IMG/VR virus record: IMGVR_UViG_3300025418_000125
Coordinates: 1 to 43,077 of that record
Length of the DNA: 43,077 nt
Source: a virus
Direction: 5' to 3' (one strand)
The notes under the pieces are model-generated. The model did not search any database, had not been told where the DNA came from, and was given only the letters and a program-made list of their open reading frames with translations. A program made the position numbers and the translations under genes. Positions 3,631-26,783 of the stretch are shown here, in pieces. How positions within the stretch are numbered: position 1 is the first letter of the stretch; each line of letters starts with the position of its first letter.

Positions 3631-3635
3631 GTGAA

Positions 3636-3643: not shown

Positions 3644-3666
3644 TAGATACTGCATTACCGTTATTT

Positions 3667-4650: not shown

Positions 4651-4659
4651 TCTTTATCC

Positions 4660-5904
4660 TTACTTAGTGATTGAAACCACTGCAAGAACCATTCCTGTTG
4701 CTGCATCTGTCTTATTTTCTAAGGCACGACCAATAACATTGAATGCTGTCAATTCTTCTTTCTTAGCAGCACGTGCGTAGCCCTTAATACCAGCAGATAC
4801 TAAACGTTGACCTTTTTTAACTTTACCGATCACTTTAACAAGCACACGCCCTGATACAGCAACAGATGGATGTGTCTCATCACTACCAGCAGCACCGTTC
4901 ATAGTGAAACCTGCAGTAGTTGAAACAACACCAAATACTTCTTCACTTGCATCTTTTGTAACGGCAGTGATTTCTTTGTCTCCGCCAATTTCAACAACTG
5001 TGCCTGCATCATAGATATCATCAGCTTCAAAGCGTTCTGCTAAGTCAGCATATGTTGCATTAATACGAGCGCCAGTTGTCAATGTCCAAATGCCACTAAT
5101 AGTACCTGTACCTGAAAGTGTAGAGATTGTATTAGATGATAAATTGTTTGGAGTAATGTTGCCATTAAATTGTGTGACATTATTAGCACCAGTCAAATAA
5201 TCACTGACATTACCGTTGTTGTATGTGCCGCTTGGATTAAACGGTGCACCGTTTGCATACATATAGTTGTCACATTTGATACCGTTAGTACTTGATGCAG
5301 TAAAACTGACGTTACCATTTATAATAGATAATGCATTGCCACTTGGATTTCCATTAACTGTCCAAGCACCTTGAATATTACCTGGATTAGTTTGAGAACC
5401 AGTTGAAATATATCGTGCGTTAAGAACACTGGTTACGTTGGCAGTAGTGATAGTAGCAATGTTAGATGTGATTGCGCTGGATACAGTAACTGTTGCAACT
5501 GCTAGAGTAGAAGTAATTAGATTGTTAGTAATAGTAGCATTGTTAGCAGAAACAATGTCACCTGTAATGGTGACATTTCCTAGTGTAGTTGCACCGGCAC
5601 TTGTTGCACTTGTCAATTTAATCCATTGACTGGCAACTGTAGTTCCGTCAGCAGGACATACACACAATACTGGTTGATTAGGGTTAGATGTGTTAAACCA
5701 CAATTGACCCTTCAATGGGTTAGCAGGAGGGTTTGCGCTTGCAAAGTTTTCCAACATTCTAACAAAATTTGTATCTTGGATTTGACCATAACCTGCATAG
5801 TTACGTCCAGGAAGTCCTAGACTAGTACTGGTTGTATTGACCGCGCCGTCTTGAATAGTTGTAAGAACCGTTGAATTATCGCTTCTTATGATTGTATATG
5901 CCAT
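4660..5904 (-). CDS. Tail fibre with C-terminal YADLAER domain
   Basis: A 414-residue protein. Residues 1-110 form a conserved attachment region with WFN motifs (GQLWFNTSNPNQP). Residues 110-275 are a low-complexity stretch rich in Thr, Asn, Ile and Val with short repeats of the 'ITSNIATITTANVTS' kind, typical of trimeric beta-helical fibre shafts. From about residue 285 the sequence YADLAERFEADDIYDAGTVV begins a C-terminal domain that I recall from many phage fibres and related to intramolecular chaperone/autoprotease (peptidase G2-like) modules. That suggests trimer folding and possible self-cleavage, although I cannot point to a proven catalytic residue. It would act on the outside of the virion, in host recognition. 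A perfect late promoter box lies 20 bases upstream, so it probably has its own late transcript. Confidence 0.8.
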   Translation of the reverse strand: MAYTIIRSDNSTVLTTIQDGAVNTTSTSLGLPGRNYAGYGQIQDTNFVRMLENFASANPPANPLKGQLWFNTSNPNQPVLCVCPADGTTVASQWIKLTSATSAGATTLGNVTITGDIVSANNATITNNLITSTLAVATVTVSSAITSNIATITTANVTSVLNARYISTGSQTNPGNIQGAWTVNGNPSGNALSIINGNVSFTASSTNGIKCDNYMYANGAPFNPSGTYNNGNVSDYLTGANNVTQFNGNITPNNLSSNTISTLSGTGTISGIWTLTTGARINATYADLAERFEADDIYDAGTVVEIGGDKEITAVTKDASEEVFGVVSTTAGFTMNGAAGSDETHPSVAVSGRVLVKVIGKVKKGQRLVSAGIKGYARAAKKEELTAFNVIGRALENKTDAATGMVLAVVSITK

Positions 5905-5932: not shown

Positions 5933-6553
5933 TTAGACTGTAACCAAATTAGTTAGAGTCTGAATTCTGATTGTATAATCAATCTGTATTTGACGATTCA
6001 ATGCTTTTTGCACTGGGTGAAAGATAACGTGAGTCATTAACTGAGTTAATTCGTTGCCTGAATTGTCGGTTCCATAGTATCCTAAAATACCCAATTCGTC
6101 AAAGACATACGCACTTGATAGCGAGGTGCTATTGTCGAATGCCATTTGTCCTGAAGGTTCACCGTAATCTAACAAACATTGAATAATAATATCTGTATAG
6201 ACTTTACCCGAAACATGACTGATGGTCATTTTATTTCTAGATGGGTTTGTATTCAAAATGTTAGTGTCGTCCACAACTTTTGTATATGTTTGATTATACA
6301 AACTAGCATTAGTACCAACTGTATTAGGTGGCAAATATGTAATGATACCAGTTTGGTCAATACTTGACCCACCATTACCAAAAGCCATTTTGTAGATAGT
6401 GCCTGTTCCCCGATTAGATAAAGCATTTGCAATACCAATACTGATATTCTCATAGTGTATTGCATTGCATTTATCTACGAAGACTTCACCATCGTTTGGA
6501 TCGTAAATCTTTAAAAAACCCTTAATTTGCATGGGTAGTAAATTGTGTAACAT
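5933..6553 (-). CDS. Baseplate/fibre-associated virion protein (DPNDGEV family)
   Basis: A 206-residue protein. Residues 8-35 carry the pattern IKGFLKIYDPNDGEVFVDK followed by NAIHYENISIGIANALSNR, then a Gly-rich turn (AFGNGGSSID). I recall this pattern as a conserved structural protein of T4-like marine phages, next to the fibre genes; its place in the virion is not established to my knowledge. The C-terminal half is beta-rich with Thr and Asn. It starts on the stop codon of the 55-residue gene (TAATG), and that gene's C-terminus resembles its N-terminus, so the pair probably arose by partial duplication. The late promoter box of the fibre gene lies within the last codons of this gene. Confidence 0.65.
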   Translation of the reverse strand: MLHNLLPMQIKGFLKIYDPNDGEVFVDKCNAIHYENISIGIANALSNRGTGTIYKMAFGNGGSSIDQTGIITYLPPNTVGTNASLYNQTYTKVVDDTNILNTNPSRNKMTISHVSGKVYTDIIIQCLLDYGEPSGQMAFDNSTSLSSAYVFDELGILGYYGTDNSGNELTQLMTHVIFHPVQKALNRQIQIDYTIRIQTLTNLVTV

Positions 6554-6737: not shown

Positions 6738-9700
6738 TTATCTATTTCCGGAATTTAAGAACTCAGCAGCAGCCGTTGTACTGACTGAAACTGGATCACC
6801 AAATGGTGCATAATTTGAACTGTTCCATAATATTGACATTTGGCTAGGGTCAAGTTTTCTAGTTGGACTCAAACTATACACATAGTCATATTGGTTATGT
6901 GCTGTTGTGGCAGTGTTTTGTGCGTTTCTAGTCAATCCAGTGATTGTGTTGGTTGTTGGATCAACTGATGTAAATTGAATTCTTTCACCATTAGTCTCAA
7001 TCAAGTTACCAACATAAACTGTGAATTTAATTAAATCTCCTACAACAGTGTGTGGATCGTAGAATGCGACTCCACCTGCACCTTTGTACATTTCAAGTTC
7101 AACATTTTCTGATGGTATAATAGTACCTTTAGTAACGTTAAACGCCTCAACACGTGTAATTGCGTTTGTATTGAAGTTCAACAAGAAACCAATGTCATTG
7201 TCATTATCAATGTTAATCAAAGAACTAATCTGAGTAACAGTGTTGGTTACAGTTACAACTTCAACAATTTTTGACACATCATTCAAATACATAGTAGTAT
7301 CTGTTAGACCAAAGTCAACTGTCAACCAAGTTCTATCCGTTGGGTTAGCTCTGTAAGCGGATTGAACACCTGTCTTGTCAACAAGTAATTTGAAGCCTGA
7401 TGGGTTTGGACTACCACCGTCAACAAATGCAGTCACAATAATGTTGTCACCGTTTTGTACACCAGGAATTACAAGGTGATTAGCTGAACTATAATGATAT
7501 GCAGTTGAAGGTAAACGTCTACCGTTCAACGTAACCCATGCTTTATTTACATCAGTATATGTCATATTAGGCATTGGGTTAGGTACTGTTGGGTACGGTA
7601 TAGTAACAGTCAATGTACCAGATGATCCTGCATGTACTTTAGTAGTTGTTGCAAACAATCTACTAGCATCAAGGTATGATGTATATGCAATGATACGTGT
7701 TTCATCTATTGGATCACCAGAGAATGTTAATGTAGAACCTGAAATAGTGTATGCTGTTCCCAGTGCTTGTCTTACGCCATCAATTTCAACAATACCATCA
7801 GCAATATTCTGACCTGTTGTAGGTAAAGTCAATGTATAGGTATTGCTTCCTCCAACTGCACCAGTAAATGCCTGTGTTTGTGGGTATGAATAACCATACT
7901 GTGTTGAGTTAGTAGGTGTTGTGGAGTCAGCAAAGATTGAATACAAAATCTTAGTATTAGACTGGTCATATTCAGTATTAAATTGAATCTTCATTGGTTG
8001 ACTACCTGTACCAGTATCGTAAGGTAAGATTTGATAATCAACGTTGTTTACCAATCGTGTATTACTTGTTGAAGTTTGTACAAAGATTAGTGGATCAGTA
8101 ACTAAGTCTTGGAACAACACATCCAACACAATCATTGTGTGACCTGTATTAGGATCGACTCGCAATGGAATCAAATCTGAGTTTCCTCTTGCAAGTTCAA
8201 CACCATTGCCAACTTCATACACTTCAATCATAATTGATTGAGTAATATCAATTGATTGGTTTAACGTGACAACACGATTGAACCAATCAATTGTATAAGT
8301 GTATGGGTTGTTCAAGTTTGTTGAGGTGTTCTCATAGATTCTAGTGTAGCCTGCATAGTTAGGGTCAAAATAGAATACTGCTAATTGAATTGGGTTCACA
8401 ACCAAGTTAGCAAAACTAATTTGATTATTACTGTCAGGTCTGCCCAATACTTGTGTCATACTAAAACCAGAGTTCTTATACCATGCCAGTTGTGTATTAT
8501 CTAAATCCCAGTATGCGCTAGGTGCTGTAGTAACTTGCATACTAATAGAATCAGAAATAATTCCAGGAACTAATTCTTCTGGACCATATCCAAACAAGAA
8601 GTCGTTGCCCTTGACAACATAAGTTGGGTCTTCTGATGCCAAGTTAGATTGACTTACCCAGTTGACTCCGTCAATACTACGCAAGATGGTATCATTAGCA
8701 CCAGACGCATAGAAGAATGTACCATCGAAAGTTACGTTGTGTAGATTTTCAGTAGTGATTGCACTATTAGTTTCTTGTACCCATGTGATACCATTAGATG
8801 ATTTTAATAACAGTCCCGAATCACCTACTGCAACAAACAAGTTATTACCATACGCAATACTTGTAATATTAGTTGTAATAGCTGATCCCATAATTGTACT
8901 AGCTACCCAGCTTGTGCTGTTGGAACTATAATAAATTTTAGCATGATTACCTACAACCACCATTACTGAGTCGTTATGTGCAATTCCATTTAAAGCATAC
9001 GCCGCTAAACTACTTGATTCAGTGTTCCATGTTACACCATCCGTACTAGTTATAATTCTAGTGATAGGATTGATGATAGGTGCTGATGTATTTGCACCTG
9101 ATACAATTTGACTTCCCAAACCCACTGCCACATAACCAGTGAACCCTGATATTGAAATATAGTCAATATCATTGATTACGTTAGTTAGACGACTATAGAA
9201 TTGGAATAAACTGTTCCAAGTTAAAGCATCAGTACTTTGTAGAATTTGTGTTCCAACTGCAAAGAATGCACCATTCAAATACTTGACTTTCTGTAGTGGG
9301 ATACTAGGAGCTGTCACCGTAGAAATATCGTAATCACCTATATCATATGCAAGATCATCATAATTTTCTTCACTGCTAATAGTTAACCATGTACTCAAAT
9401 CATAACTAACCATCAAGTTTGTTGTTGCGGTGTTTGTTGTTATAACATACACTCCATTATTGTATACAATACTTGTAATATTCAATGGAGTATCGGCTAG
9501 TCTAGTAGTATTCCAAATAGTGCTATCTGTACTTCTAATTAAAACTGATGTAGTTGGTGTGTCAACAACTGCAACGTACTCATTTCCGTCATAAGCAATA
9601 GACTTAATATTAGGACTGACTGGGTAGAAAGGTCTATCTACTAAGTATGCATCAATTGGAAGAATATCTTCTGGACTAAAGCTATTACCATAGTATACTG

Positions 9701-12700
9701 GGTTTGGATATGCAGTTCCCTTCAACAATTGTTGAACATCTTTTGCTGGCATATCTAAACTAGGTTGGTAAAAACCTTCAATTCTATCCAATGCATTCAA
9801 ACCAAGATCGCTTTGACTTAATGGTACCCATTTATTAGGATCAAACACTGCATCATGGTTAGTTTCAATACATTGCCAAATAGTATTTGCATAACTTGTA
9901 ATTGAACTTGTCATATATTCAAAGTTCATGTTGCTGTACAACGGTTCTGGTAAATAAGCATAATCAGTGCCTGGGTATCCATAACCATGTGTATCATATG
10001 ATGTGGCACCATTCCAAATGAATGAACTGTATGCCACCGGTACTTGCATTGACGGGTCAGCGAATATTGCCAACTGTGTATCATTGATAGCGTCTACATA
10101 ATACTTGCCTGTATCATTTACAGGTGTTCCATTGACAGTTGCCATGAAAATTGAAGTATCATCGTTAACAGCAGTAACTTGAATCACCGCATCATTAGTG
10201 CCATTTGTTCCGCCTAGATTACTACCCAAAATTTTGAATGTTTGTCCTTGTGAGTACCCTGTACCACTTGATATCATCTTGATATAGTAGTTACTTACAA
10301 CACTATCATTCGTAAACGTAGGTCTGTAAATCTTGAACTCTGCACCACCGCCGTCAACAAAATCATAAGGAGCATGAACACGATAGAAGAACATGCTAGT
10401 ACCACTAGCTTGTCCTGGTAACAACCCACTATATGAGTAATCTACTGTGATAACTGCACCACCGTCTGTTGAACTATCTAATTGTCTGATAGGTAATACT
10501 GCACCTTGCAAACTAGTTGTATCAACAGTAGGAGTTACACCCATAACTTGGAATGTTAATATACCACCTGAACCGTTGACGCTAGTTACGAATATGTAAC
10601 AATTATTTGCAGTGCTTCCTTCTAAGTTCAATCCGGATATAGTAATAATACTACCAGTGAAGTGAGCTAAAGCATATGCTAAGGTCCATGAACTATTCCA
10701 TGTTCCAGCAGTATATCCAGTTCCTGCTGTAGTGACAGCAGCTTGATAAACACCTTGTTCAACCCAGTTTTCAACAGTGAACACTGCATTGTTTCCACCA
10801 GTTGGTGTTACTGTACCAGTTTGATGTACATAAGTTGCTGCATAACCGATTGTTCTATCAGTGTTTACACTAGCCAATGAGTTGTGGTAAGTACTTGACC
10901 AAAATTTATTTGGTGTCCAAGGAATTACATGTGATCTATAACTAGTTCTATCAAACTTGATAGTAGTTCTAAATCCACGAACCAATGTATTGTTTGCATA
11001 CACGACTGCATATGCACTTACACCAATAGTATGCGTATAGTCAGAAGACAATAATTCTACTGAGGTAAATGAGATTGGATTTACTTTTCTTACGCTATCA
11101 CGATAGCTCTTGTGGAAAGTAATAAATGACAACCCAGTATCTGCTTGGTTTAATACATTGATATAATACACTCCGTTAGGAATAAATGTTAATCCATTAG
11201 ATCCAGTACCAGTTGATCTTACTAAATCTCCTGTATTTAACTCTGAGGTATCTAATACAATGAATCCATTGTCGTTGACTGCACTTGTAGAGAAAGACAT
11301 TGATATGCTTGGATCAATGATAATTTTTGGCAACACTACATATCCTGCACCAGGATCCTTCACAGTAATACCAATGACTTTATCACCTGCCATCACTGCT
11401 TCTAACACTGCAGGAGTTGTTGGAGCTGGATACAATGTGGTATCAATGTATGCAGTTACTCTAGGTAAGAATGCATACGCTCTACCCTCATTTAACAACG
11501 TGACGCTAGGTACATCCATTACAATCTGTACGCCAGGGATATGGAATGTAGCCTGAGTTGAGTTAAATCCCCTATTCAATCCATAAAGAATTCCTAATTC
11601 TCTATCAACACTACTATAAGAAATTACCTCAGTATCAACTACGATTGTTCCTGTTGCAGGCATTCCTCTAGCGTTATCAACATACATGATAGTGTCACTA
11701 GGATTAACGTATTTTGCAACAAACGCAATAATAATTTCTGGACTATCAACTAATGACAAGCCAAAATGATTATACCAACGTTTGTAATCCATTGAACTAT
11801 ACCATAATGGATCAGTATAAGAATACTGTTGATTAGTTTTAGGACCACCAAATGTTAATTGAGGTGATACGAATTCACCTAAATTATTATCAAAGAATGT
11901 AGGTAAGTCAAAATCTGTAACTGTTCCTGCAATTGTTTCTAATGCAGAATAAGATAACGTGAACTCTTTAATAACTACGTGGTATGGTTTGATTTCATTC
12001 AAGTAACCATCAAGCAAGTTTAGATTATCAGGACGATACTTAGTATCTTGTCCCAATGTTCTTACATTATAAGTTACATCAGTGAAACTTGTTTTGTTCA
12101 ACCAAGGCAAGTATCCACCGTTTGCAACACTTTCACTTGAAATATATTCAAACATCAAAATTAATGCTTTGTTTCTGTATGCGAATAGGTCGTCAACAAA
12201 GATTTGTTCAAATATACCACGAACTATATAACGTGATTCAACGGTTGGATGTGCATCAAAGCCAGATGAGTCAAAGAAGTCATTACCAAAACCAATCTTG
12301 TTGTCAGCGTAGTCATATAGACTACTTAAGAATTGGATAGTACCATCTTGTAAACCAATACGAGTCCAAACATTACTTGAGTAAACATAAACTTCACGTT
12401 TGCCTTTGCCGTTTTTAGCAACACCTACTAACATTCCATCTGTTGGGGTGAATGTCATCAAGTCTGCATAAGTTTGAACTTCTAAGTTTGTTTTAGTTGT
12501 TGAAGAATAACCAGTTGCCCACCAGTATGTGTATTCCCAATAGACTCTTGTATCAAAGTTATCGCCGTATACGTTCAACAATGTTAAGTTTTCAATTTCA
12601 CTGATAGGATAATTAACAATGATACTGTTAGTATATTCAATGAAGTTTTTCAAAGCACTGAATCTGTCAATAAACATGCTTTGACGAGGTCTGATGTTTA

Positions 12701-15700
12701 CACCAATCTGTAGCATTTTTGGTAGTGATGGGTCAGGCACAACTGCACCAAAACTATCACTACCTGCAAAACTATCTATTAATTTTTCATATACACCTGT
12801 TGGATTTGATCTGCCTAATTTTGCATTAGGGAAACCTGTTAAGAAGTCTTCAGGATAATCTGTTCTAATCAACTTAAAGTCAATGTGTGCAGGTGTATCA
12901 TTGTTACTTGTACTGAATCCCAAATGCAAGTTAGTTGTTTTACCGTTGATATAACTTGCTGCATTGTATATAGCATATGTATTAGTACGCAATGGTGCTA
13001 AGAAAGCAATGCCTGAGTTAGCAGGATTAGTGATATATTGAGCAATTGTATAATCGCTTAATGTCTTGCCTTGCAATGAGTACAATGAATTTGTATTCTT
13101 GACCCAAAAATAGTACACAGGTACAAGATTATGATTAGCGTCAGTTACGAATGTTACTGCGTACTTAGTTACATCATACGGAGTTCCTGTTGTATCCTTG
13201 TATTGATTAGGTGGAGTTAATGACTCTACCCATGTATATACATCTACACTGCTTCCTGGAAATACTTGACCCCAATACTTGCTATTGTACACAACATCAT
13301 TTTGATGGTAGTCTAAGAATCTTGCTGTTGATGTGTTAAACCAAATTTTACCAACTTGATTCTTGTTCCAAACAAGTTTACCTGTATTATAGTTAGCACT
13401 GTTGTAACCTGCAGGGTCGATTGACGTCACAAAATCTAAGTTTTCTGCAACTGCACCCAAGAATTTACCTTGCAATGGATCAATATAGTCTAATGACAAT
13501 AGTGTTTTGTCTGTAGAATTATCAAACAATTGAACTTTTTGTACTTTGCTAATGTCAACAACACTATCTGGATAACGATATTTTGTCCAGTCGCTTGTTC
13601 CAACATTATTTCTATACATTACAACTTTACCAGCAGTTGTTCCTGATTGGTAGTTAGGTGCGCTAATCATTAGTAAATTATTTCTAAAGTCTAATGCAGC
13701 ACCGTAGTTAGATAAGTAACCATAGTTGTTTAATGCACTTGCAGATGTTGATGGAATATCGTTACAAGGTTGTGCGTATATAAAATTACTTAAGTTTAGT
13801 AATGACTCATTATAACAAGGGATATAGTCAAACATATAGACTGCACCGGCTTTAGTAAATGAATCAATAAACTCAGTTAAGTTACTATCAAACGTAGTTT
13901 GATTATGTAAATCTGTGTTAACATCATAGTCAAACTGTGTTTTTAAATAGCTGTTTGTAGTAGGAGCACCCACTGCAATAGAACCAGTTTCATTAAACTT
14001 AACCACTGCACCAAAATTTGAACTATGTTGTGAGTGAGGGTTAGAGATTGTCTGTGATTTAGTATACAAAGACATACCCATTTCAGTAATGATGTTACCA
14101 TTCAAAGCCATGATGTTGAGTTTGTTCTCAGCTTGACCCAATGTTTTGTCAATCAAAGAAATAATCAATCTATCTTCTGAATCAGCAGCAGCAAATACGT
14201 TTAGAATGTTAGTACGATTGATAACCTCAGCAACATTAGATGCATCACCCAAAGGAGCAATAATTTGAACATCACTTGCATGCCATGCATCTGTAGGTGA
14301 CGTATTTGATGTAACACTGTGTCCAAATGTGGTTGGTGTTATGACTTTGGTCACAGGATCTCGGATAATAAAATTCAATTGTCCAGTAGGTACTCCCTGA
14401 CCATCACGAGCCAATTGATATGTCAATGTATAATTATTTGAATAGATATTCTGGATTGTAATTATACCAATGTCGGGCATTCTTGCTGCATCTACTTGGC
14501 TTACGCTAATAGATGTTGAACTTGATTTTACGTTGGTAGTAGCAGCAAATGTATGGAATAAGTTGACAACATAACCATTAATGTACATGTAAGTTGGTTG
14601 AAATACATCTGCTTGAATCAACGCAGACATGCTACCAAACTTTCTTCCCTCACAAGTAAATCTGATTACTGCACCTTCTTCGTCATTGTTTACAACACCT
14701 CCTGGTGCACCAACCATGACTTCACTAGCCCATTTGTTACATGAAATACTTGCACCAAATTTTTCACCTGGATGCAAATCACTGTATGTGATTGATTTCA
14801 TTAAGAATTGTGAGTATACTAGGTTGTAACTTCTGAAAGAAATGATGTCACCTGCTTTAAAACCTACTGGACCAATCAAAATAACTGTGCCTACGTTTGT
14901 TTCGACATTACCAGGCAGTACAATATATTTTGTTGTTGGCAAAGGTGTGCCATTCCAATAGATTACAGAATTGTTAGTAGGAATCCATGCAACAGTAATT
15001 GCAAAGAAAGGAGTAAACAAGTTTTGATCGAATTGAACTTTGTAATTCTCAACGATTGCATCAGCTACCCAAACACGACCTACATCAGATACGTTATGCA
15101 AACCATCGGTTGTAGTAAAATCTGCATTTGGTGAACCAACAAAAACTCTAGTTCCGTCATAGTTAGTAGCTATTGAACTACCAAAATTATCACCATAACT
15201 CCATACTGGTGATTGTGATGTACCAATGAGTTGGAAGTTGACATGAGAATGGTATACAGCAGCGCCTGCTTGAGACACGTGCTGGATAGTTCCTACAATG
15301 TAGAATGTTGTTTGGTTTGTTGGTATATCATATATACCTGTAATTACAGTATAGATAATATCTTGGTTGAACGATGCAGCATAGACAATAGTACCGTTGT
15401 AGACAGTAGCAATTATTTGTTCTTCCGTATAAACAGTTGTAGTATCTGCATCAGAATCATATGATGTATGTGTAACAGTATATAATTGATCTCCTGCAGT
15501 TCCTGAATTACTAAATGACACTTGCAAACCAGTATAGATTGCTTGTCTTACATCACCTTCACAAACAAAATATTGATCGTTTAAGTTTGCATTGACATAC
15601 AATGTACCTGCTTGGAAGTATTGTGTAATGAACGATACACGTTGTCCTGGTGTAATGCTTGATAATACGTTGCCATGAACTGAGAATTTATTATCATTAA

Positions 15701-18700
15701 CTACTGTTGGTTTAGATAATACCATTCCCAAATTAGTGAATGTTAAATTAGGATTTCTTGCATAGACTGCTAGTAGCTCAGTTGCCTCATCTTTAACAGC
15801 AGCGTATAGTACATTACTGTCGCCTGAGATTGCCATAGAATATCCAAAGTTACCACCACTAACAGACAATACTTGTTCAAGTACAGGAGTACGTAGATTA
15901 GATTCTGAAGGGATTCGATAGATATAAACTTGGCTCAATGTCAATGATGCATCTGGTGCACCAACTAACATTAACTCGTCACTATAAACAATAGCAGAAC
16001 CATAGCTAGTATCAGGATATGATAAGAAGTAATCAGTGATGAATGAACCGTCACCATTTACATTATCAATGTAATGATATACTACTCCAGCACCGCTATC
16101 ACCCACAACATAACCTAGTGTAGGTACATTGGCGACGGCTGAACCAAAATTAACAGTAGTAAATTCATTTTGATTTTTAATCTTCGGTAACGAATTGTAT
16201 ATGTAGTTAGGTGTTTTACTGTACACAGTCCAATCACCATTCTCATTTTCATCTACCCAAACTAAATTTGTGTTGAATTCAACGTTGTTCAATGGTAGTG
16301 AAACAATATCTCTTGATGTAGTGACACGATGGCTCTGCATCATAAACGCAGCACCGTTACCAAAAACTTGAGTTGCTGTTTTTGTTAAGTTGGATGTGAC
16401 TACAATAGTTGTTAAGTTTGTTATACTCTTAACTAAGTAATACCCATCAATTCTAGGATCAAAATTGACAATACCTACAATTTGATTAGTAAGTAGATTA
16501 TGTAATCCAGAGAATGTGATAGAAATAGTTCCATTCAAATTGTTAATTACGTTTGTTACAGATACTCCTAATGGAGTAGGAGTATATACATCCCAGCTAC
16601 CGTTGATATTTGCTAACCAAACAAAGTCACCACGATAGATAGCATAGATACTACCGCTAGTCAATGAAGACAAGTTATATCCTAACTCAACTACGTCATC
16701 AACGTTTACGTAACCAGCTGTCGGTATCTTACCAACAATGCTAGATTCACTTAATGTTGATAAAATGCTAGTGTTTGAAATGTTTCTAGCATAGTTCTTA
16801 ACTTGATTTAACGGAACTTGTTGTTGACTTCCAACAACATAGGTATCTCCTACGATACTTACAATAGAAGGATTACCGGTAAGTTGTGTTTGGTCAAGTG
16901 TAATTTGAACAAAGTTGTGATTGTTCAAACCACTATACTCACTATTTTTAATAGCCCAGTTCTCATGCACAGTATATGACATTTGATTGTCATTAAGAGT
17001 AATACCATTCAATCCGTTTGCTGATTGTGTGGTACCTTTAGACTCAATCATACTCTTGTACAAGTTAACCTGCGTAGGATCATCTAATTCTGCCTCTGAC
17101 AAATATGGTCTTGGTCTATATCCAATCAAACTAAAGCTCAATAGGTCTGCATCGTTTGCTAAATTAGCTTGGTTTGGGTTATAGTATTTGATTGCTTCAA
17201 CACTCTTAGTACTTGGGTTTGGCAACATGTTTTGTTGAACCATGTCATAAGATGTTTCATCCCAATATGTTTTATCAAACGTTGGACTAGGTTGAACAAC
17301 ATCAATGTTAGCCATCCAGTATGAATTCTTATAACTCACTACAGTGCCCTTAACATACTTGGTGTTTGCTTTCCAATCTTCGATGTTGTCTTGTGAGATA
17401 ATAAAGCCAGCAGCAGATAGAGTTCCGTTCCAGCCAGCACTCTTAGAACCCTTCATAAAGATACGTTGTTGACGTAATCCAGTGATTGGGTTATAAATCA
17501 AGTCACCAAACAATGTTGTGTTGTCAAATACAATCACGTGTTCAATGGTACTAATAGTAGCATTAAAGAAACTAATAGAATCACCTGCATTCAATGTTTT
17601 AATTGACAATTGTGTACCTTGACGGTCAATTGCCAAATCATTCAATGCGATAGGTATTAAGTTTTGATTTAAAATGAAGTTTTCTTTTTGCAACGTCAAT
17701 GGTTGAACAATAGAATTGCCATTGTCAATCACTAACTGACTATTTGCAGGATTAATGTTGATGATAGAACCAACTTCCCAACCAGTCTTAATCCAGTACA
17801 ATGTTTCATACAACATCTGTGTCCAGTTGGTCACAATACCATTATCTAATCCATTGAATTGGAATCCTTGATTTTCTAAGTATATACCATAACCTCTGAT
17901 AAAAGTTAACAAGTCGTCAACCGTTTCAAATTCAGCGCCGTATGGATATGTGATAGTCTTGTCGTTAAAATAATTTCTAGGCACTTGAGCACTAACCGTA
18001 TCAATTGCAATAGTATCAAATATTCCTAACTTAGGAGCTGATGTAATGAAGTATGCATTGACTTGTTTATTACCATAAACTCTGAAACCATTATTAGATA
18101 TTTGAATAATAACTGGGCTATAGATTAATGTATCTGTTGGTTGGTTGTTGTACAACAACACTGAATAACTATCTTCAGGAACTAGTAATGAATTCGCTGA
18201 TGCTGAACCCATTTCTAACATAAAGTTCAACAATGTCTTATCACTAAATCCTGCCATTCTGTAAGAAAGTCTTACATCAGAATTAGTAAACAAATCAACG
18301 ATTTGGCTGGTGCCGTTCATACCAAATTGTTTTTGATAATCAATAATCCAGTTCAAGTAACTATGTTCAGCAGCAGTGGCATCAGTTCCATAGAAATTTA
18401 ATAGATTATTAGGATCACCAATGTTTGTACGTAACCTACCATAGACTAGCCATTGTCCAAACTCTTGATTATGTGAATATACATCCAAATCAATGTTGTA
18501 TGTAAAGAACTTAGCTGGGCGCATCAATGCTGCAATTTTCATCAAATCAAACGGCCATGCGCTACTTGAACGATATGAGTACTCAGTAGGACCCATGTCG
18601 CCTACTTTCCAATTATTTTTAAATTGTTCAAAGTTATAGCTACCTATGAAGTTGCTGAACGGTAATATCAAATTACCTTGATTGTCAACAGGAATCATAG

Positions 18701-21700
18701 ATAATAGATCAGGTCTAATGCGTTGTTTGTTAATATATGAATCACCGTTGTTATAGACAAAACCATTACTAATGTCTGTCCACATCACTGTGTTTTCACT
18801 TGTATAAGGTGCTGCACCGTAATAACTATCCCACCATGTTGGTTTAATTGTTAACCCTAACATTTCCCACGGGCGTGTGTGAGGGTATACAGTGTCGTAT
18901 AACCATAGATAGATGCCCTTCCAGTTGCCAGAAGTTAACAATGATCCATCTGATTTTAAACTACTACCTGAATAGTTCCATGTTTTCTCATTGAACGCAT
19001 CATAATTCTGTGTTGTATAATTAATACGATTCGTACCAACCCAGTTTAAAAACAATGTTGAATAAACTGAAAGATAGTCGTTGTATGTGTAGCCAACATC
19101 TCTGTCTTTACCTGGTACTAGTTGATCTAGTCCAACTGAAACAGAACTGGAAACTTTTAAGTTGTTAAAGACTCGTAATTCAAATTCTAACAATACTTTG
19201 TCACGTAAGTCAGTCAACAATTCATTGACATAATCTCCATATAATTTAGTCTGAGAACCATCGTGACCTCTGATAAAGTATGTTGGAGTTGTGTATGTGT
19301 CATCCAATACTACTTCTGGGATGAATGCAGGATACAATCCAAGTTTAGTTGGAGTGCTAGGTACAAAATTACCATATGTTTGTGCATATTCATTGATTGT
19401 GATAGTATCGTTTGGTAACAAATCTGCAACAATTTCTAATCTTGCAGTAGTGTCAGAAACAATATAATCAATACCCCTTACCAATTGCGTAATCGTTGTA
19501 CCTTGGTCTACCGTAGTGCGTGTTAAATAAACCAAGACACTATTGTAATTTGCTTTAGTAAAGTCATATATCTGATTCAATTGAAAGAATGAGATAGGTA
19601 GATTAGTTTTAAAGCTGTATGTGTTTGAATATGTAGGTGTTTTACATGGGAGCATATCGCTCCAAAAAAACGAACTAGAATCTAAACCAGATGCAGTTAA
19701 GAATCCAAGTATGGTATCTAACAAACCAGGCGCAGGTTGTGTTAAATCAATGTTAAGTGTATCAATACTAGAAACTAGTAAATTCTTAAACTTGTCATAT
19801 TCATATGCATTGAATGTAGTTGCATTAAAGAAATTATAGTCATTGTTTCTAATGAATGCGGCAGGTAAAACCAATGGTGCACTATTCTGAACAATACGAG
19901 TACCAAATGGTACTAGATTACCTAAATCTCTGTAGTTGTTTGCACCAAATGCAATACCGGTAAGAGTAGATATGTTGTTGCAAATACTCTTATAATGTCC
20001 ACGAACATCACCCAATGTGATAGAACCAATCGCCTGATTGAAAGGATTGCTTTCTAGTGTAGGTGGGATTTCATAATAACCTATCTTACTTACTTGGTCA
20101 CTATATAGCATAATCACAACAGGTGTTCCAATTTCAGGAGTAGTTGTTAATGTAACTGTTGTACTATTGCTAGTTGTAGTAACTGTGTAACCAGTTGGAT
20201 CCAAACGTACATTGTCTGAATAAACAACAATGGTAGGCCACTTAGTGGTTGCAGGATCTTTCATTGCAATGTCTACAGTAAATGTAGGAGTTCCTGGAAT
20301 TCCAGTATATTGCAAATCAAATACTTGATTTTGATAGCTTAAATCAGCAGCAGTTTGCCAACCAATCTTTCTAATAAAATTAGTGTTTGAAGTATATTCG
20401 TATGCATATGCGGTTTTAACTAACGCAGTAGTAGATACACCGTTCAATGAGTAGTTAAAGGTATCGCTATTCAGGGAAATATTAAATTCAACATCACCTA
20501 AGTTGTTGATACTTGTGTAGCTGATAGGGAATCCTAAGATAGAATCGTTTGTGCCAGTGCCCTTTTTGTATTCAAGTAATGTACAACCAACAAAGCTAGA
20601 ACTTGGGTAGCTATGTGGGTCACCTAAGCTGTTGCCTAGATAGTCAAACAAATCGAACAAAGGTGGTTGATTGATATTGTTTTTCTGTTGTGATTCGTTC
20701 CATTCAGAACCATCAAAATAGAATGTCTTGCCACCAAACGTGTCACCTGACAATACAGAAATCATATCGTTAAACTTGATATCTACAACAGGTACTAAAA
20801 CGATTTCTGGTTGTACAGTAATAGTTGTTGCTGTGTTACCAAATATACCTGGATCCGCTGGATACAACAAAGTCACTGATGATTGTGTGCTATCAGTAAC
20901 AATGTATGTTCCGTTATAGCTAGAATTAGAGTTACCTGCTACAGTGTAATATCTACCAACTGTTGGTGGAACTGTAGTTTGTGGAATAGCAAAACGAACT
21001 TGAGTATCAATTTTTCTGAGTACTGTTGTTAATGTATTTGAATTTGTAGGAGCAACAGTCTCGACCTGTGCTTCATAAATTTTACTTCTAACTTCTAAGT
21101 TATTATCTGCTGCAAAAATAATTCTAGTACCATTAGTGATAGCACTAGTAGAACCATCAGGTCTGAAACTTACTTGACCGGCAACTTGATTAAATGCGTC
21201 ATATGAGTTATTGTCAATGTATGTTACTGCACCACAATCTACAGAACCATAATTAAATAATTTTAAATTTGGATAGAACTCTAAGATTGGGCGCTTAGCC
21301 ATACTTGATGAATTACTTAATGCTGCGCTTGCTAACGGTGCAGACACATTATTTGCAATAGTGAGTTTCAATACATCAGCGTGAAACCAACGATTGCTAC
21401 GGCTCCATGCATTTCTATTCAATGCCCCGCGATTAATAGTCAAGTAATCTTGATCTACTGGTAATCTAACAGTAGTGTCTCCTACAGTAATAACTTGAGC
21501 AAATTGTTCAGGAACTGACAGTGCTGATTCAGGTACCAGCACGATGCTAGAACCTACGCCCTCAACATAATAGTTATCTTGTAAGTATGATTCTGGAACT
21601 ACATTACCTTGGAATGTGATCTTTAAACCATTTGTGAAAGTAATACCGTTAGGGCTAGTGTAAGTTGTTTTGCCTAAAATATTGTTAACGTCAATGTAAG

Positions 21701-22889
21701 ATGATGTTGCCGTATCAACTAATTTGATTACACCGACTTTATTTGGGTCTGTACCATCTTGGTAATACAATGTGTCATATGATGCAGTAACAATAGGAAT
21801 CAAAGAAATGTAATCATATGAGTTTTTAACAAACTCTCTACCAATATATTCTGTACCTGTTCTGATTAGAATAGCTTCATTATCTGGTAATAAGCCAGCT
21901 TCTGATAATTGTATTGTGCTTACCCCATCAACTAGTACATATGAAACTGTATAGTAATGTTTGTTGATTTGTGTGATTGAACCACTGATAGTACCAGTGT
22001 CTAGTGGTGCAGCACCATAGAAAATGATTGTTTTGTTATCTAAGTAACCAACCCCATCAATAGTAACATCCTGTGCAGGCATGTCTTGTAAGTCTGCAAA
22101 ATTCATCGTAGCTACTAAATCAACTTCTAATCCTTTAGGATATACCATTGAGTTTTGTGCATCACTAAAAGGTACATTAAAAGTAAGTGTACCATTCATT
22201 ATACCGTTATTACTAACACCAAAAATTTCTCTAGTTGATTGATTTACTCTTGCACTATCAATTCCAGATGTACCGGGAATAGTTTGAATCCAAAAGTCAG
22301 TATTTTGATTAATATTGAATTCATATGTTCCACCACGAACTAATGTAATCTCAGGGTTACCCTGAGACAACGCAAACTTATCAGAAACAAAGGTATAGTC
22401 AATCCCAGTAGACGTTACTGTATATGTTAATTGACTATAATTAACAGAATTCGTGACAGTTACTGCTTCAGGACCTTCTGGAATCCAGTAGTACTGACTA
22501 TAGTTAATCATTTTATCTAAGTCAACAAAACTATCCCATGAGTAGAATTCACTGGAAAATAATAAGTTGTGGTTGTCAGTTGCGGCACCATTCAATTTTA
22601 GTGCATCAATGATACCTGGATATGTTAATACATCAACTGCCTTACTTGTACCAGTTTTTGTGAAAACAATACTAGGTTCCAATTGATAGTTAGTACGGAT
22701 ACTATTTGGTTCTTTGATATATTGATCTGTACTCTTGACTCCATAACCAAACTTACTACCAATAAAACCTTGCACTCTATTGAAGTCTGGTTGTTGAACC
22801 AACACATCTAACGTAGATGATAAAAATTGTTGGTTAGGTGTAGTTTGAAAAATCTCTGGTAAAAAATCAAGTGTTCTAATTGTTGCCAT
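6738..22889 (-). CDS. Giant virion protein with two predicted beta-propellers
   Basis: An uninterrupted 5383-residue reading frame, about three eighths of the window. The N-terminus (TLDFLPEIFQTTPNQQFLSS, then YQLEPSIV and SQYYWIPEGP) matches a structural protein family I recall from T4-like marine phages. No signal peptide or membrane segment is seen. Features in order: a CBM5/12-like aromatic motif near 1834-1880; six clear and one weak FG-GAP-like repeats between about 2296 and 3150 (SYGSAIVYSDELMLVGAPD, KFGASISC...VMVGAPGG); ETITY-type modules near 3752 and 5302; three GxGY modules near 3853, 4060 and 4213; a second aromatic motif near 4337; seven Asp-box (BNR-like) repeats at about 4450-4745 (STDGVTW, SSNGITW); and IDGVRQ/LNGRRL linker modules to the end. 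It follows gp6 by 14 bases, where T4 has gp7. It is probably a wedge or rim adhesin binding host glycans. AGGT lies eight bases before the ATG. Confidence 0.85.
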   Translation of the reverse strand: MATIRTLDFLPEIFQTTPNQQFLSSTLDVLVQQPDFNRVQGFIGSKFGYGVKSTDQYIKEPNSIRTNYQLEPSIVFTKTGTSKAVDVLTYPGIIDALKLNGAATDNHNLLFSSEFYSWDSFVDLDKMINYSQYYWIPEGPEAVTVTNSVNYSQLTYTVTSTGIDYTFVSDKFALSQGNPEITLVRGGTYEFNINQNTDFWIQTIPGTSGIDSARVNQSTREIFGVSNNGIMNGTLTFNVPFSDAQNSMVYPKGLEVDLVATMNFADLQDMPAQDVTIDGVGYLDNKTIIFYGAAPLDTGTISGSITQINKHYYTVSYVLVDGVSTIQLSEAGLLPDNEAILIRTGTEYIGREFVKNSYDYISLIPIVTASYDTLYYQDGTDPNKVGVIKLVDTATSSYIDVNNILGKTTYTSPNGITFTNGLKITFQGNVVPESYLQDNYYVEGVGSSIVLVPESALSVPEQFAQVITVGDTTVRLPVDQDYLTINRGALNRNAWSRSNRWFHADVLKLTIANNVSAPLASAALSNSSSMAKRPILEFYPNLKLFNYGSVDCGAVTYIDNNSYDAFNQVAGQVSFRPDGSTSAITNGTRIIFAADNNLEVRSKIYEAQVETVAPTNSNTLTTVLRKIDTQVRFAIPQTTVPPTVGRYYTVAGNSNSSYNGTYIVTDSTQSSVTLLYPADPGIFGNTATTITVQPEIVLVPVVDIKFNDMISVLSGDTFGGKTFYFDGSEWNESQQKNNINQPPLFDLFDYLGNSLGDPHSYPSSSFVGCTLLEYKKGTGTNDSILGFPISYTSINNLGDVEFNISLNSDTFNYSLNGVSTTALVKTAYAYEYTSNTNFIRKIGWQTAADLSYQNQVFDLQYTGIPGTPTFTVDIAMKDPATTKWPTIVVYSDNVRLDPTGYTVTTTSNSTTVTLTTTPEIGTPVVIMLYSDQVSKIGYYEIPPTLESNPFNQAIGSITLGDVRGHYKSICNNISTLTGIAFGANNYRDLGNLVPFGTRIVQNSAPLVLPAAFIRNNDYNFFNATTFNAYEYDKFKNLLVSSIDTLNIDLTQPAPGLLDTILGFLTASGLDSSSFFWSDMLPCKTPTYSNTYSFKTNLPISFFQLNQIYDFTKANYNSVLVYLTRTTVDQGTTITQLVRGIDYIVSDTTARLEIVADLLPNDTITINEYAQTYGNFVPSTPTKLGLYPAFIPEVVLDDTYTTPTYFIRGHDGSQTKLYGDYVNELLTDLRDKVLLEFELRVFNNLKVSSSVSVGLDQLVPGKDRDVGYTYNDYLSVYSTLFLNWVGTNRINYTTQNYDAFNEKTWNYSGSSLKSDGSLLTSGNWKGIYLWLYDTVYPHTRPWEMLGLTIKPTWWDSYYGAAPYTSENTVMWTDISNGFVYNNGDSYINKQRIRPDLLSMIPVDNQGNLILPFSNFIGSYNFEQFKNNWKVGDMGPTEYSYRSSSAWPFDLMKIAALMRPAKFFTYNIDLDVYSHNQEFGQWLVYGRLRTNIGDPNNLLNFYGTDATAAEHSYLNWIIDYQKQFGMNGTSQIVDLFTNSDVRLSYRMAGFSDKTLLNFMLEMGSASANSLLVPEDSYSVLLYNNQPTDTLIYSPVIIQISNNGFRVYGNKQVNAYFITSAPKLGIFDTIAIDTVSAQVPRNYFNDKTITYPYGAEFETVDDLLTFIRGYGIYLENQGFQFNGLDNGIVTNWTQMLYETLYWIKTGWEVGSIININPANSQLVIDNGNSIVQPLTLQKENFILNQNLIPIALNDLAIDRQGTQLSIKTLNAGDSISFFNATISTIEHVIVFDNTTLFGDLIYNPITGLRQQRIFMKGSKSAGWNGTLSAAGFIISQDNIEDWKANTKYVKGTVVSYKNSYWMANIDVVQPSPTFDKTYWDETSYDMVQQNMLPNPSTKSVEAIKYYNPNQANLANDADLLSFSLIGYRPRPYLSEAELDDPTQVNLYKSMIESKGTTQSANGLNGITLNDNQMSYTVHENWAIKNSEYSGLNNHNFVQITLDQTQLTGNPSIVSIVGDTYVVGSQQQVPLNQVKNYARNISNTSILSTLSESSIVGKIPTAGYVNVDDVVELGYNLSSLTSGSIYAIYRGDFVWLANINGSWDVYTPTPLGVSVTNVINNLNGTISITFSGLHNLLTNQIVGIVNFDPRIDGYYLVKSITNLTTIVVTSNLTKTATQVFGNGAAFMMQSHRVTTSRDIVSLPLNNVEFNTNLVWVDENENGDWTVYSKTPNYIYNSLPKIKNQNEFTTVNFGSAVANVPTLGYVVGDSGAGVVYHYIDNVNGDGSFITDYFLSYPDTSYGSAIVYSDELMLVGAPDASLTLSQVYIYRIPSESNLRTPVLEQVLSVSGGNFGYSMAISGDSNVLYAAVKDEATELLAVYARNPNLTFTNLGMVLSKPTVVNDNKFSVHGNVLSSITPGQRVSFITQYFQAGTLYVNANLNDQYFVCEGDVRQAIYTGLQVSFSNSGTAGDQLYTVTHTSYDSDADTTTVYTEEQIIATVYNGTIVYAASFNQDIIYTVITGIYDIPTNQTTFYIVGTIQHVSQAGAAVYHSHVNFQLIGTSQSPVWSYGDNFGSSIATNYDGTRVFVGSPNADFTTTDGLHNVSDVGRVWVADAIVENYKVQFDQNLFTPFFAITVAWIPTNNSVIYWNGTPLPTTKYIVLPGNVETNVGTVILIGPVGFKAGDIISFRSYNLVYSQFLMKSITYSDLHPGEKFGASISCNKWASEVMVGAPGGVVNNDEEGAVIRFTCEGRKFGSMSALIQADVFQPTYMYINGYVVNLFHTFAATTNVKSSSTSISVSQVDAARMPDIGIITIQNIYSNNYTLTYQLARDGQGVPTGQLNFIIRDPVTKVITPTTFGHSVTSNTSPTDAWHASDVQIIAPLGDASNVAEVINRTNILNVFAAADSEDRLIISLIDKTLGQAENKLNIMALNGNIITEMGMSLYTKSQTISNPHSQHSSNFGAVVKFNETGSIAVGAPTTNSYLKTQFDYDVNTDLHNQTTFDSNLTEFIDSFTKAGAVYMFDYIPCYNESLLNLSNFIYAQPCNDIPSTSASALNNYGYLSNYGAALDFRNNLLMISAPNYQSGTTAGKVVMYRNNVGTSDWTKYRYPDSVVDISKVQKVQLFDNSTDKTLLSLDYIDPLQGKFLGAVAENLDFVTSIDPAGYNSANYNTGKLVWNKNQVGKIWFNTSTARFLDYHQNDVVYNSKYWGQVFPGSSVDVYTWVESLTPPNQYKDTTGTPYDVTKYAVTFVTDANHNLVPVYYFWVKNTNSLYSLQGKTLSDYTIAQYITNPANSGIAFLAPLRTNTYAIYNAASYINGKTTNLHLGFSTSNNDTPAHIDFKLIRTDYPEDFLTGFPNAKLGRSNPTGVYEKLIDSFAGSDSFGAVVPDPSLPKMLQIGVNIRPRQSMFIDRFSALKNFIEYTNSIIVNYPISEIENLTLLNVYGDNFDTRVYWEYTYWWATGYSSTTKTNLEVQTYADLMTFTPTDGMLVGVAKNGKGKREVYVYSSNVWTRIGLQDGTIQFLSSLYDYADNKIGFGNDFFDSSGFDAHPTVESRYIVRGIFEQIFVDDLFAYRNKALILMFEYISSESVANGGYLPWLNKTSFTDVTYNVRTLGQDTKYRPDNLNLLDGYLNEIKPYHVVIKEFTLSYSALETIAGTVTDFDLPTFFDNNLGEFVSPQLTFGGPKTNQQYSYTDPLWYSSMDYKRWYNHFGLSLVDSPEIIIAFVAKYVNPSDTIMYVDNARGMPATGTIVVDTEVISYSSVDRELGILYGLNRGFNSTQATFHIPGVQIVMDVPSVTLLNEGRAYAFLPRVTAYIDTTLYPAPTTPAVLEAVMAGDKVIGITVKDPGAGYVVLPKIIIDPSISMSFSTSAVNDNGFIVLDTSELNTGDLVRSTGTGSNGLTFIPNGVYYINVLNQADTGLSFITFHKSYRDSVRKVNPISFTSVELLSSDYTHTIGVSAYAVVYANNTLVRGFRTTIKFDRTSYRSHVIPWTPNKFWSSTYHNSLASVNTDRTIGYAATYVHQTGTVTPTGGNNAVFTVENWVEQGVYQAAVTTAGTGYTAGTWNSSWTLAYALAHFTGSIITISGLNLEGSTANNCYIFVTSVNGSGGILTFQVMGVTPTVDTTSLQGAVLPIRQLDSSTDGGAVITVDYSYSGLLPGQASGTSMFFYRVHAPYDFVDGGGAEFKIYRPTFTNDSVVSNYYIKMISSGTGYSQGQTFKILGSNLGGTNGTNDAVIQVTAVNDDTSIFMATVNGTPVNDTGKYYVDAINDTQLAIFADPSMQVPVAYSSFIWNGATSYDTHGYGYPGTDYAYLPEPLYSNMNFEYMTSSITSYANTIWQCIETNHDAVFDPNKWVPLSQSDLGLNALDRIEGFYQPSLDMPAKDVQQLLKGTAYPNPVYYGNSFSPEDILPIDAYLVDRPFYPVSPNIKSIAYDGNEYVAVVDTPTTSVLIRSTDSTIWNTTRLADTPLNITSIVYNNGVYVITTNTATTNLMVSYDLSTWLTISSEENYDDLAYDIGDYDISTVTAPSIPLQKVKYLNGAFFAVGTQILQSTDALTWNSLFQFYSRLTNVINDIDYISISGFTGYVAVGLGSQIVSGANTSAPIINPITRIITSTDGVTWNTESSSLAAYALNGIAHNDSVMVVVGNHAKIYYSSNSTSWVASTIMGSAITTNITSIAYGNNLFVAVGDSGLLLKSSNGITWVQETNSAITTENLHNVTFDGTFFYASGANDTILRSIDGVNWVSQSNLASEDPTYVVKGNDFLFGYGPEELVPGIISDSISMQVTTAPSAYWDLDNTQLAWYKNSGFSMTQVLGRPDSNNQISFANLVVNPIQLAVFYFDPNYAGYTRIYENTSTNLNNPYTYTIDWFNRVVTLNQSIDITQSIMIEVYEVGNGVELARGNSDLIPLRVDPNTGHTMIVLDVLFQDLVTDPLIFVQTSTSNTRLVNNVDYQILPYDTGTGSQPMKIQFNTEYDQSNTKILYSIFADSTTPTNSTQYGYSYPQTQAFTGAVGGSNTYTLTLPTTGQNIADGIVEIDGVRQALGTAYTISGSTLTFSGDPIDETRIIAYTSYLDASRLFATTTKVHAGSSGTLTVTIPYPTVPNPMPNMTYTDVNKAWVTLNGRRLPSTAYHYSSANHLVIPGVQNGDNIIVTAFVDGGSPNPSGFKLLVDKTGVQSAYRANPTDRTWLTVDFGLTDTTMYLNDVSKIVEVVTVTNTVTQISSLINIDNDNDIGFLLNFNTNAITRVEAFNVTKGTIIPSENVELEMYKGAGGVAFYDPHTVVGDLIKFTVYVGNLIETNGERIQFTSVDPTTNTITGLTRNAQNTATTAHNQYDYVYSLSPTRKLDPSQMSILWNSSNYAPFGDPVSVSTTAAAEFLNSGNR

Positions 22890-22903
22890 TTATATTACCT
22901 ATA

Positions 22904-25900
22904 TTATCCTGCAGGGGTCAATTCAGCCGGGGTCAATGCTGTGATTACTGTGATGTCTGATGCTGTAGCAGCACTGACAAAAATTTCATATGGGGCAGAC
23001 TTAATTTCATATAAGTCACCAAATACTAATGTTGGATCACTTGGTACTAAGATAGCTGAACTAATCATATCTCCCATCTTAGAATGCAAGTATGCACTCA
23101 ATTCGCTGAAATAGAATGTATCTCCAAAGTCCCAATTTGAAATATCAAAATATGCGTTAATGTTTGTCAATGCAGTTGTGATGATTTCACCATCACTTGC
23201 GTTTGTAGTGGATGCTTTTACAAGTTTGATTTTACCTTGTAACTCAGAAGGAGCTTTAGTTCCAAACAATGGTTTGAATTTTGCACAGTTTAAAATAATG
23301 CTGTCGGTTAACATCTTATAACTATTTAACTGATTATATTCTTGTGCTAATTCTGTTATTGTTGGTACTAATGGTTCACTTACTTTACCAGTAGTATCAG
23401 CTAACCAGTTTTGATAGCTAGTGTAGTAGCCTTGCGGCAACACATACAAATCAATAATGTTTGTAGTTGCCGGATCAACTCTATTAGAATCACCGGAGAC
23501 ATGTCTATATTGGAAGTACAATCCTTGACGACCAAATTTAACATTGTATGTTGGTGCTAATACCAAATCAACAATGTTACTATATGTTGGATCTTGAATT
23601 AGTTGATAGAAATTACCTTCAAGTACTGCATAGAATATCTGGCCAACCGGGTAGTCATATTTTACGTTGGCAATGTCACTTAGTGTTCCATAGCTATATT
23701 CTACATTAATAGATGCAACCATTTCATAACGTGTTAACAAGTTTGTATCGGTTACTTGGTTGAAGAATACAAATTGTCTTAGGTTCAATGCACCAAATTC
23801 AAATCCAGTTAGTTCATTAAAGAAGTCTGGGTTCTTGTTTGTACCCGGAACTGTCAATGCCGATGTTGAAACTTCAATAGAATAGTCATCAACATATCCA
23901 TCACTTTCAATCATTTGACCAACTACTTCTAATTTTACATCTTGTGCGATTGGATAGTTTGATCCAAACTGACTGTTTGATTTCAAAACGGTGATTGTAT
24001 CCTTCATTAATTCACCTGTGACAGAATCATAAATGATTTTGTCAGCATCAAATACAAATTTAATATTAGATACACTACCAAAATAATAGATTGTTGATCT
24101 ATATGTTACTTGATATGAATTGTTACCTAAACTAGTAAACTTAACAAAGTAACTAGGGTCACTAATTGTGCTCATTGACCAACGCTCTTGGTTAGCTAAC
24201 AATGAGTTGTTATAGACCAACGTGAAACTTTGATTCAATGTTATAGAAGTGATGATATTTTGAATCAATGTGTTACCAAACACGTTTGTGAATGATGGCA
24301 TGATTGAAACTAAGATACAACCACTTGGCACTGGGTTTGTTAAAGTGATTGGCCCAACCCCAGTTGAAAGATTACCTTGACCAGCATTTGATCCATCACC
24401 TACTATATTTGATACGCTTGTCCAAATAACAGTAATATCACTAGGTCCAGGCAATCCTGGAACTAAACGATTGTTTGTGTCAAAGTAGAATCCGTCAGGA
24501 GGAATAAAACCTAGTAATGCTCCTTCAGTAATGTACTTGACTGTGTTACTTGCAGCTACGCCTACGTTAACTGCTTGACTCGCACCCGTGTTTGTTGTAC
24601 TTAAAAAGAAACCTGTACATTCAGTTGCATCATTTGTTGTTTGATTCCAAAATACTTCACCAGTGCCGTAATCAGATTCAGCAAGATAACGTGTGAATTC
24701 TTGAACATAGAATTGATAAGAACGGTTACTGCTTAGGATGCTTGCTAAGTTATCTGTTAAAAATCTAACAATATCATTAGTAGTTGAAACTGTTAAATTG
24801 ACAAAGCCATCATCAGTAATTTGGAATAAACCACCATCATCACTAAAATCATTAGTGCTTGAATAACGTGCGCTTGGGTCTAGTAAATCGTAGTTACGAC
24901 TTACGCCAACACTACTACGGTTCAATGCTTTACTTTTGATGATTGAACTGTATAGTGTGAATGGGAAGTTATTATAGTCTTCACCATTTACCATACGATT
25001 TTGTGTATAGTAACGTTGTGGAGCACGTTCTTTAATATTAGCTAATGTTTCACGTGCTTGTGCATTTGAAACAGGCAATGTTAGTTCGATGCCAATTGTC
25101 AATGTCTCTGTACGACCTTGAGCACTTGTGTATGGGATTTGAATTGTTGTACCCTGTAACTCGCTAGGATCAATTGTATATGTCGTTGCATCTCCTGCAC
25201 GAACATAGGAAATAAAGCTACCTACAGGAATTTGTCCAAAAGTTCCATCACCAAAGTTATATGTAACTTGGTCATTATATCCTGATGTTACACTGAACAC
25301 TGTTTGATTTGGTGTCTTTGTGTATGTGGTTGAGTAGATGCTATCTACTTGATTCCATTGACTCAATGCTTGTGAAATTGGATCAATCTTATACAACCAA
25401 GTATCTTCATTGTTAATACCTTGAATTGGAATATCAACGGTTTGATTAGCTAATTGATTAGCTAAGGTAAATGTATATGTTTGTAGTGTACCTTGTTTAA
25501 AGTACAAGAAAAACCCTGTATTAGCACTACCATAACCTAACAAATCATTACGATATAGTACGTTGAAGTATGAATTAATACCCGGATCCATTTCATACAA
25601 TGTATTTGAATTTACGCTAGACATACTAACGCATTCAAAATTCATGTTGACATTGTTGATATTAGCATTAAATTTGATAGCGGGAGTAGTTCCTAATGGA
25701 AGCTGAATACTATATTCATCAGTTTTAATATCTGCGATTGTTGCTGAATGCCCAGGATTACCAACTCGTTGTGCGTTGATAAATGCGGCATTTAATACTG
25801 TGTTAAACTGTTGTTGCCAATTTGAGTTTGCTGCGTCATTCCATAGAATAGTCAAATTAGTCAAGTTCACATTATTGATATCACGGATCTGCTCAGTGGT

Positions 25901-26272: not shown

Positions 26273-26293
26273 AGGTTTATTCTCTCAATAATG

Positions 26294-26301: not shown

Positions 26302-26321
26302 ATTAAGGAAAATGGCGTTTT

Positions 26322-26775: not shown

Positions 26776-26783
26776 TATTTATG
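26776..26783 (-). promoter_or_regulatory. Late-promoter-like box CATAAATA at gp25
   Basis: The minus strand reads CATAAATA across the end of the gp5 gene; its TAA is the gp5 stop codon. Only four bases separate it from the gp25 ATG, so a late transcript from it would be leaderless. Because the stop codon contributes part of the match, chance is a real alternative. Confidence 0.35.

Follow-up and report, generated by a model that had tools for sequence, protein, structure and literature searches.

A 5383-residue protein in the gp7 position is of ordinary size for its widespread jumbo-phage family of giant tail-baseplate proteins

Background

In phage T4, gp7 has 1032 residues and follows gp6. 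Phage proteins at the gp7 position that are as long as the one described here, or longer, are already present in public databases. In cyanophages, proteins annotated as gp7 lie directly after gp25 and gp6. Their lengths are 5195 aa (P-SSM2), 7312 aa (P-SSM4), 3884 aa (S-CAM9) and 4107 aa (DSL-LC03), and in S-SSM7 two proteins, one of 3007 aa and one of 3001 aa, carry this annotation. Giant size at the gp7 slot thus has precedents: cyanophage gp7 reaches 3001-7312 aa, and the P-SSM4 protein was listed as the largest bacterial-virus protein in a 2021 survey (PMC8553790).

The closest described relatives of our protein belong to PHROG 10938, and tblastn detects homologues with 25-30% identity in some 85 jumbo phages that have been sequenced. 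We examined eight isolates, and in each of them the homologue comes next after gp6 or after whichever gene occupies the slot of gp6. The names and lengths of the homologues are as follows.

Phosso 294, 4555 aa; Atu_ph07 gp180, 4449 aa; PA5oct gp355, 3857 aa; SCTP-2 gp140, 3807 aa
Vibrio 2.275.O 424, 3771 aa; CBB_236 of CBB, 3340 aa; RaK2 ORF070, 3326 aa; 121Q 582, 3323 aa

Mass spectrometry places homologues in the virion. The record of PA5oct gp355 carries an ESI-MS/MS note, CBB_236 was detected in the virion with 21 peptides (PMC5259590), and phAPEC6 gp245, a protein of 381.88 kDa that adjoins the baseplate wedge protein gp244, was detected there with 17 unique peptides (PMC7247149). A preliminary description of the locus analysed here had proposed a virion protein, and these data on homologues support it.

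Results and discussion

A 16-kb frame directly after gp6

The window, that is, the whole stretch of DNA analysed, is the complete IMG/VR virus record IMGVR_UViG_3300025418_000125 of 43,077 bases, and is clearly a fragment. Its baseplate genes are listed below.

32584..32883, minus strand: gp53-like wedge subunit (neighbourhood annotation)
26779..30054, minus strand: gp5-like hub and tail lysozyme, 1091 aa (neighbourhood annotation)
26322..26771, minus strand: gp25-like wedge subunit (neighbourhood annotation)
22904..26272, minus strand: gp6 baseplate wedge subunit, 1122 aa (phrog_10646, E 6e-247; hhalign to S-CAM9 gp6, probability 96%)
6738..22889, minus strand: giant gp7-position virion protein, 5383 aa, PHROG 10938 family (ATG start; PHROG profile E 3.4e-200)
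5933..6553, minus strand: conserved protein of 206 aa, phrog_11259, downstream of the giant
4660..5904, minus strand: protein of 414 aa, downstream of the giant, with a C-terminal region like Peptidase_G2 (tail-spike autoprocessing)

The giant protein is encoded on the minus strand by a single frame (22889-6738) that begins with ATG and runs for 5383 residues without an internal stop, and only 14 bases separate the gp6 stop codon from its start. The open frame of 16 kb, its place directly after gp6 in the gp7 position and its length of about five times that of T4 gp7 are thus as previously described. Alignments with relatives take in 99.98% of its residues, and a single relative can account for as much as 98%, so the frame is not a product of chance. 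The proposal that it takes a large share of the coding capacity was overstated, because the window is only a 43-kb fragment and the IMG/VR contigs that carry its relatives reach 367 kb.

The gene order on the minus strand, gp53, a virion protein of 838 aa, gp5, gp25, gp6 and the giant, is common to the relatives. The layout of the window is that of PA5oct, and much the same order, with some rearrangement, is found in RaK2, Vibrio 2.275.O, 121Q and CBB. The giant sits between gp6 and peripheral baseplate genes, as gp7 does. Seven of the isolate phages have a homologue of the 206-aa protein; in five it is encoded immediately or a short way downstream of the giant, and in 121Q and CBB it lies elsewhere. 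The homologue of the N-terminal part of the 414-aa protein in PA5oct is annotated as T4 gp10-like or as a fibre. The plus strand of the window carries a gp55 sigma factor, gp47, gp46 and a RusA resolvase. A frame of about 55 codons (6554-6720, minus strand), in which a TAATG overlaps the next start, also lies between the giant and the 206-aa gene; Atu_ph07 and PA5oct have a small gene (129 and 126 nt, respectively) at the matching place.

A widespread family of giant proteins

The PHROG 10938 model is matched in four stretches (E 3.4e-200), with E 1.7e-53 for its second half, so that most of the model is covered. In a scan of IMG/VR, at least 585 of 599 candidate stretches proved to hold relatives. 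The 33 relatives with a stop inside the fetched DNA have 3789-5333 aa, and the 32 whose full frames were read on whole contigs have 4540-7757 aa. Several IMG/VR relatives have about the same length as the giant and can be aligned over 93-98% of it; for L038, L026 and L059 (5291-5315 aa, with L038 cut by the end of its locus) 98% of the giant is aligned. A length of 5383 aa is therefore a mid-range value. The giant is an ordinary-sized member, of a length found in many phages, of a widespread and already catalogued family of giant tail-baseplate proteins of jumbo phages, and the earlier impression that its size is unusual was wrong, both within this family and for the gp7 position generally, where cyanophage gp7 is equally large. 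One relative, IMGVR_UViG_3300032331_000813 (L041/G009, also L182 and L183), has a frame of 7756 aa from an ATG, with no undetermined bases, which can be aligned along most of the window protein and exceeds the 7312-aa gp7 of P-SSM4.

The isolate homologues resemble the window protein in their slot after gp6, in their conserved blocks (22-35% identity) and in their large size (3323-4555 aa). These homologues are 800-2000 aa shorter than the window protein, which has an additional N-terminal beta region and a longer C-terminal tail. The long middle region of the window protein is shorter in PA5oct and RaK2 and longer in Atu_ph07 and Phosso. PDB sequence and profile searches with the giant gave nothing notable and matched no solved structure of the family. 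It adds to a large, structurally uncharacterised family that recurs in hundreds of viral contigs, and is itself among the largest phage proteins.

Conserved and variable regions

The blocks conserved in the giant are residues 1-146, 401-624, 691-1086, 1174-1614, 1638-2014 and 3096-3672. All of the regions and modules listed here are on the minus strand.

22452..22889, minus strand: residues 1-146, conserved N-terminal block with an LPEIFQT motif (in 8/8 isolate homologues and nearly all IMG/VR relatives)
21720..22442, minus strand: residues ~150-390, additional beta-sandwich region (conserved among the IMG/VR relatives; not within the blocks alignable to the isolates)
17400..21689, minus strand: residues 401-1830, conserved core (alignments of relatives)
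17256..17378, minus strand: residues 1838-1878, CBM5/12-like module of the chitin-binding type (Pfam E 0.016)
16980..17129, minus strand: residues 1921-1970, KGT segment (alignment with a conserved helical segment of cyanophage gp7)
13605..16847, minus strand: residues 2015-3095, variable middle region (~200-1500 aa among relatives)
11874..13604, minus strand: residues 3096-3672, second conserved core block (alignments of relatives)
6741..11873, minus strand: residues 3673-5383, variable C-terminal tail (~530-1780 aa among relatives)
8619..9272, minus strand: residues 4540-4757, BNR/PSII-type propeller segment (weak PSII_BNR signal at ~4640-4740)

Across the jumbo genera the mean column identity of the approximately 2000 N-terminal residues is 34%, and among IMG/VR relatives that of residues 1165-2030 is 54%. 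The AlphaFold models have a mean pLDDT of 84 (residues 1-1172) and 77 (residues 1165-2030). In Foldseek searches with both models (residues 1-2030) we found no baseplate fold, gp7 included, and only short CBM-like matches. The top matches of residues ~150-390 were cupredoxin-like, at low confidence (probability at most 0.44), and the laccase/cupredoxin and adhesin matches were set aside on account of this probability. The CBM5/12 module (PF02839) scores 15.7 bits in the window, below the curated cut-off of 26.2, and reaches E<=0.01 in 11 of 57 relatives; in a local Foldseek search residues 1838-1878 matched chitin-binding domains with probabilities of 0.96-0.99, yet with E values of 0.36-0.86. 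The weak FG-GAP signal at residues 2566-2591 (Pfam) and the weak PSII_BNR signal suggest propellers, and the BNR segment has 27-33% identity, with E values down to 1e-10, to the C-terminal part of cyanophage gp7. The chain of different modules noted at first is supported, and includes carbohydrate-binding-like and propeller-like pieces.

Relationship to gp7

By hhalign, segments of the giant's family had no direct match to T4 gp7 (probability at most 0.4%), and a protein search with T4 gp7 among the relatives, which had no positive control, found nothing. In the positive control for hhalign, cyanophage gp7 matched T4 gp7 with a probability of 51-94%, through one segment only, which contains the KGT motif (T4 residues 677-759). 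We compared all 105 scan windows of a nine-sequence alignment of the giant with a profile of 42 cyanophage gp7 sequences. The sole scan windows above 5% probability were two that contain K1951-G1952-T (35-36%), 3651-3850 (44-53%) and 5201-5350 (25%), of which the last two match a beta module of the cyanophage gp7 profile. The KGT segment is the only core region of the giant that can be aligned to the conserved helical segment of cyanophage gp7. With the all-relatives profile it has a probability of 54%, E 1.3e-4 and a score of 33.2, and with the extended gp7 profile a probability of 36% and a score of 30.4, against a best score of 19.6 in 100 column shuffles. The alignment is short, with 45 columns, a probability of 35-54% across profiles and P of about 1e-4.

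In module-level BLAST searches against baseplate proteins, all of the 47 matches in S-CAM9 and DSL-LC03 fell on gp7-type proteins, as did 81 of 81 in P-SSM4 and S-SSM7 when the gp7-like PSSM4_082 is counted; this focus is only moderate evidence, because gp7 is also the longest target. A Tail_P2_I (PF09684) search and a comparison with P2 gpI and Mu gp48 around the KGT segment gave no match, a negative that is uninformative because the cyanophage gp7 control failed too.

The giant and cyanophage gp7 thus have comparable sizes, the same position, the short KGT similarity, and beta and BNR-propeller modules in common. They differ in that there is no full-length homology between them and that the KGT segment lies near residue 200 in cyanophage gp7 and at about 1950 in the giant. 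Of the family link to marine T4-like phages that had been proposed for the N-terminus, what stands is a weak and localized similarity to cyanophage gp7, through which the giant is indirectly linked to T4 gp7; the segment concerned is at about residue 1950. The position after gp6 and the short KGT alignment point to a gp7 role, and we think it likely that the giant works in the place of gp7. It is possibly a very diverged gp7.

A probable wedge scaffold with inserted modules

In our best reading the giant would be a wedge scaffold of the gp7 type into which beta and carbohydrate-binding modules have been inserted, and there is a good chance that it serves as the gp7-position baseplate-wedge scaffold of a jumbo myophage of the RaK2/PA5oct/Atu_ph07 type. 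By analogy with T4, residues 1-146, about 400-2015 (the KGT segment included) and 3096-3672 probably form the wedge and hold it clamped on the gp6 ring, with, again probably, one chain in each wedge and six in the baseplate. The middle and the tail, which are variable and contain beta-sandwich, propeller and CBM5/12-like modules, probably stand out from the baseplate, where they would contact the cell surface or reinforce the skirt. From the resemblance of the modules, the exposed ones would most likely make weak contacts with glycans before fibre-triggered contraction. The projecting modules have probably been gained and lost between phages.

Alternatively, a fibre, whisker or adhesin unrelated to gp7 may have taken over its locus, the function of gp7 being carried elsewhere. 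The chain is rich in beta structure, has CBM-like and propeller-like modules and lacks a direct match to T4 gp7, and fibre-like whiskers have been seen on the tails of CBB (PMC5259590) and phAPEC6 (PMC7247149), all of which would fit such an origin. We nevertheless consider it unlikely, as conservation across the jumbo genera extends over approximately 2000 N-terminal residues, in contrast to the variable tail, the protein is positioned after gp6 in all eight isolates, and the KGT segment can be aligned, over a short stretch, with cyanophage gp7.

It had also been proposed that a single chain may merge gp7, gp8, gp10 and tail fibres. In a true merger it would take over their work, for the fibres in part, and separate gp8 and gp10 would not be needed. 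If this were true, the jumbo group would build the whole peripheral wedge and its surface-binding modules from one giant chain per wedge, and separate gp8 and gp10 would have been lost in such phages. Consistent with this, gp8 (PF09215), whose profile scores in T4 and in cyanophages, was unrecognised in eight complete or near-complete jumbo genomes and in large IMG/VR relatives, and these genomes had at most a weak match to the N-terminal domain of gp9/gp10 (PF07880), with none above the cut-off. However, a Pfam search for gp8 and gp9/gp10 over the window had no match inside the giant, hhalign profile searches against gp8, gp9 and gp10 also gave none, and no such fold was seen in residues 1-2030. 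With no trace of these proteins in the chain the merger is unsupported, though the chain may still contain remote equivalents of them. Cyanophages with an equally large gp7 still encode a separate, recognisable gp8 downstream of it, peripheral roles could fall to the 206-aa and 414-aa proteins encoded downstream, and weak, partial gp9/10-type domains are present in other frames of the relatives. The missing gp8 is not evidence of fusion, because gp8 could be diverged or could have been replaced, for instance by the candidate 206-aa neighbour. We regard the merger as somewhat less probable still than a fibre at this locus. The protein would gain in importance from a baseplate structure in which one chain replaces several T4 wedge proteins, which sequence alone does not show.

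Fusion of several genes by an assembly or annotation error, for which we found no supporting point, is refuted to near certainty by a second IMG/VR contig (L020) that is 99.97% identical to positions 17903-32889 of the window across 14,987 bases, by same-length homologues that can be aligned over 98% of the giant, and by the identical layout in many separate phages.

Other observations

In the window, a T4_baseplate (PF12322) protein of 274 aa (39510-40334, minus strand; E 8e-21) lies some 5.5 kb away from the main group of baseplate genes, amid plus-strand replication genes. For a plus-strand frame of 815 aa (40402-42849), PHROG and Pfam searches gave no match. In Salicola phage SCTP-2, gp141 (L004 8633-17923), upstream of the giant homologue and in the gp6 slot, has about 3100 aa; it is possibly an enlarged gp6, which in other relatives has 1100-1300 aa. 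The gp6-position protein of Vibrio phage 2.275.O, gp425 (L006 9101-12964), is annotated with a CBM5/12 module, and gp6 may therefore also carry carbohydrate-binding modules. In S-SSM7 (L186 19998-39092) the two gp7 proteins are separated by a gp9-like connector, and the pair suggests duplication or splitting of a giant gp7.
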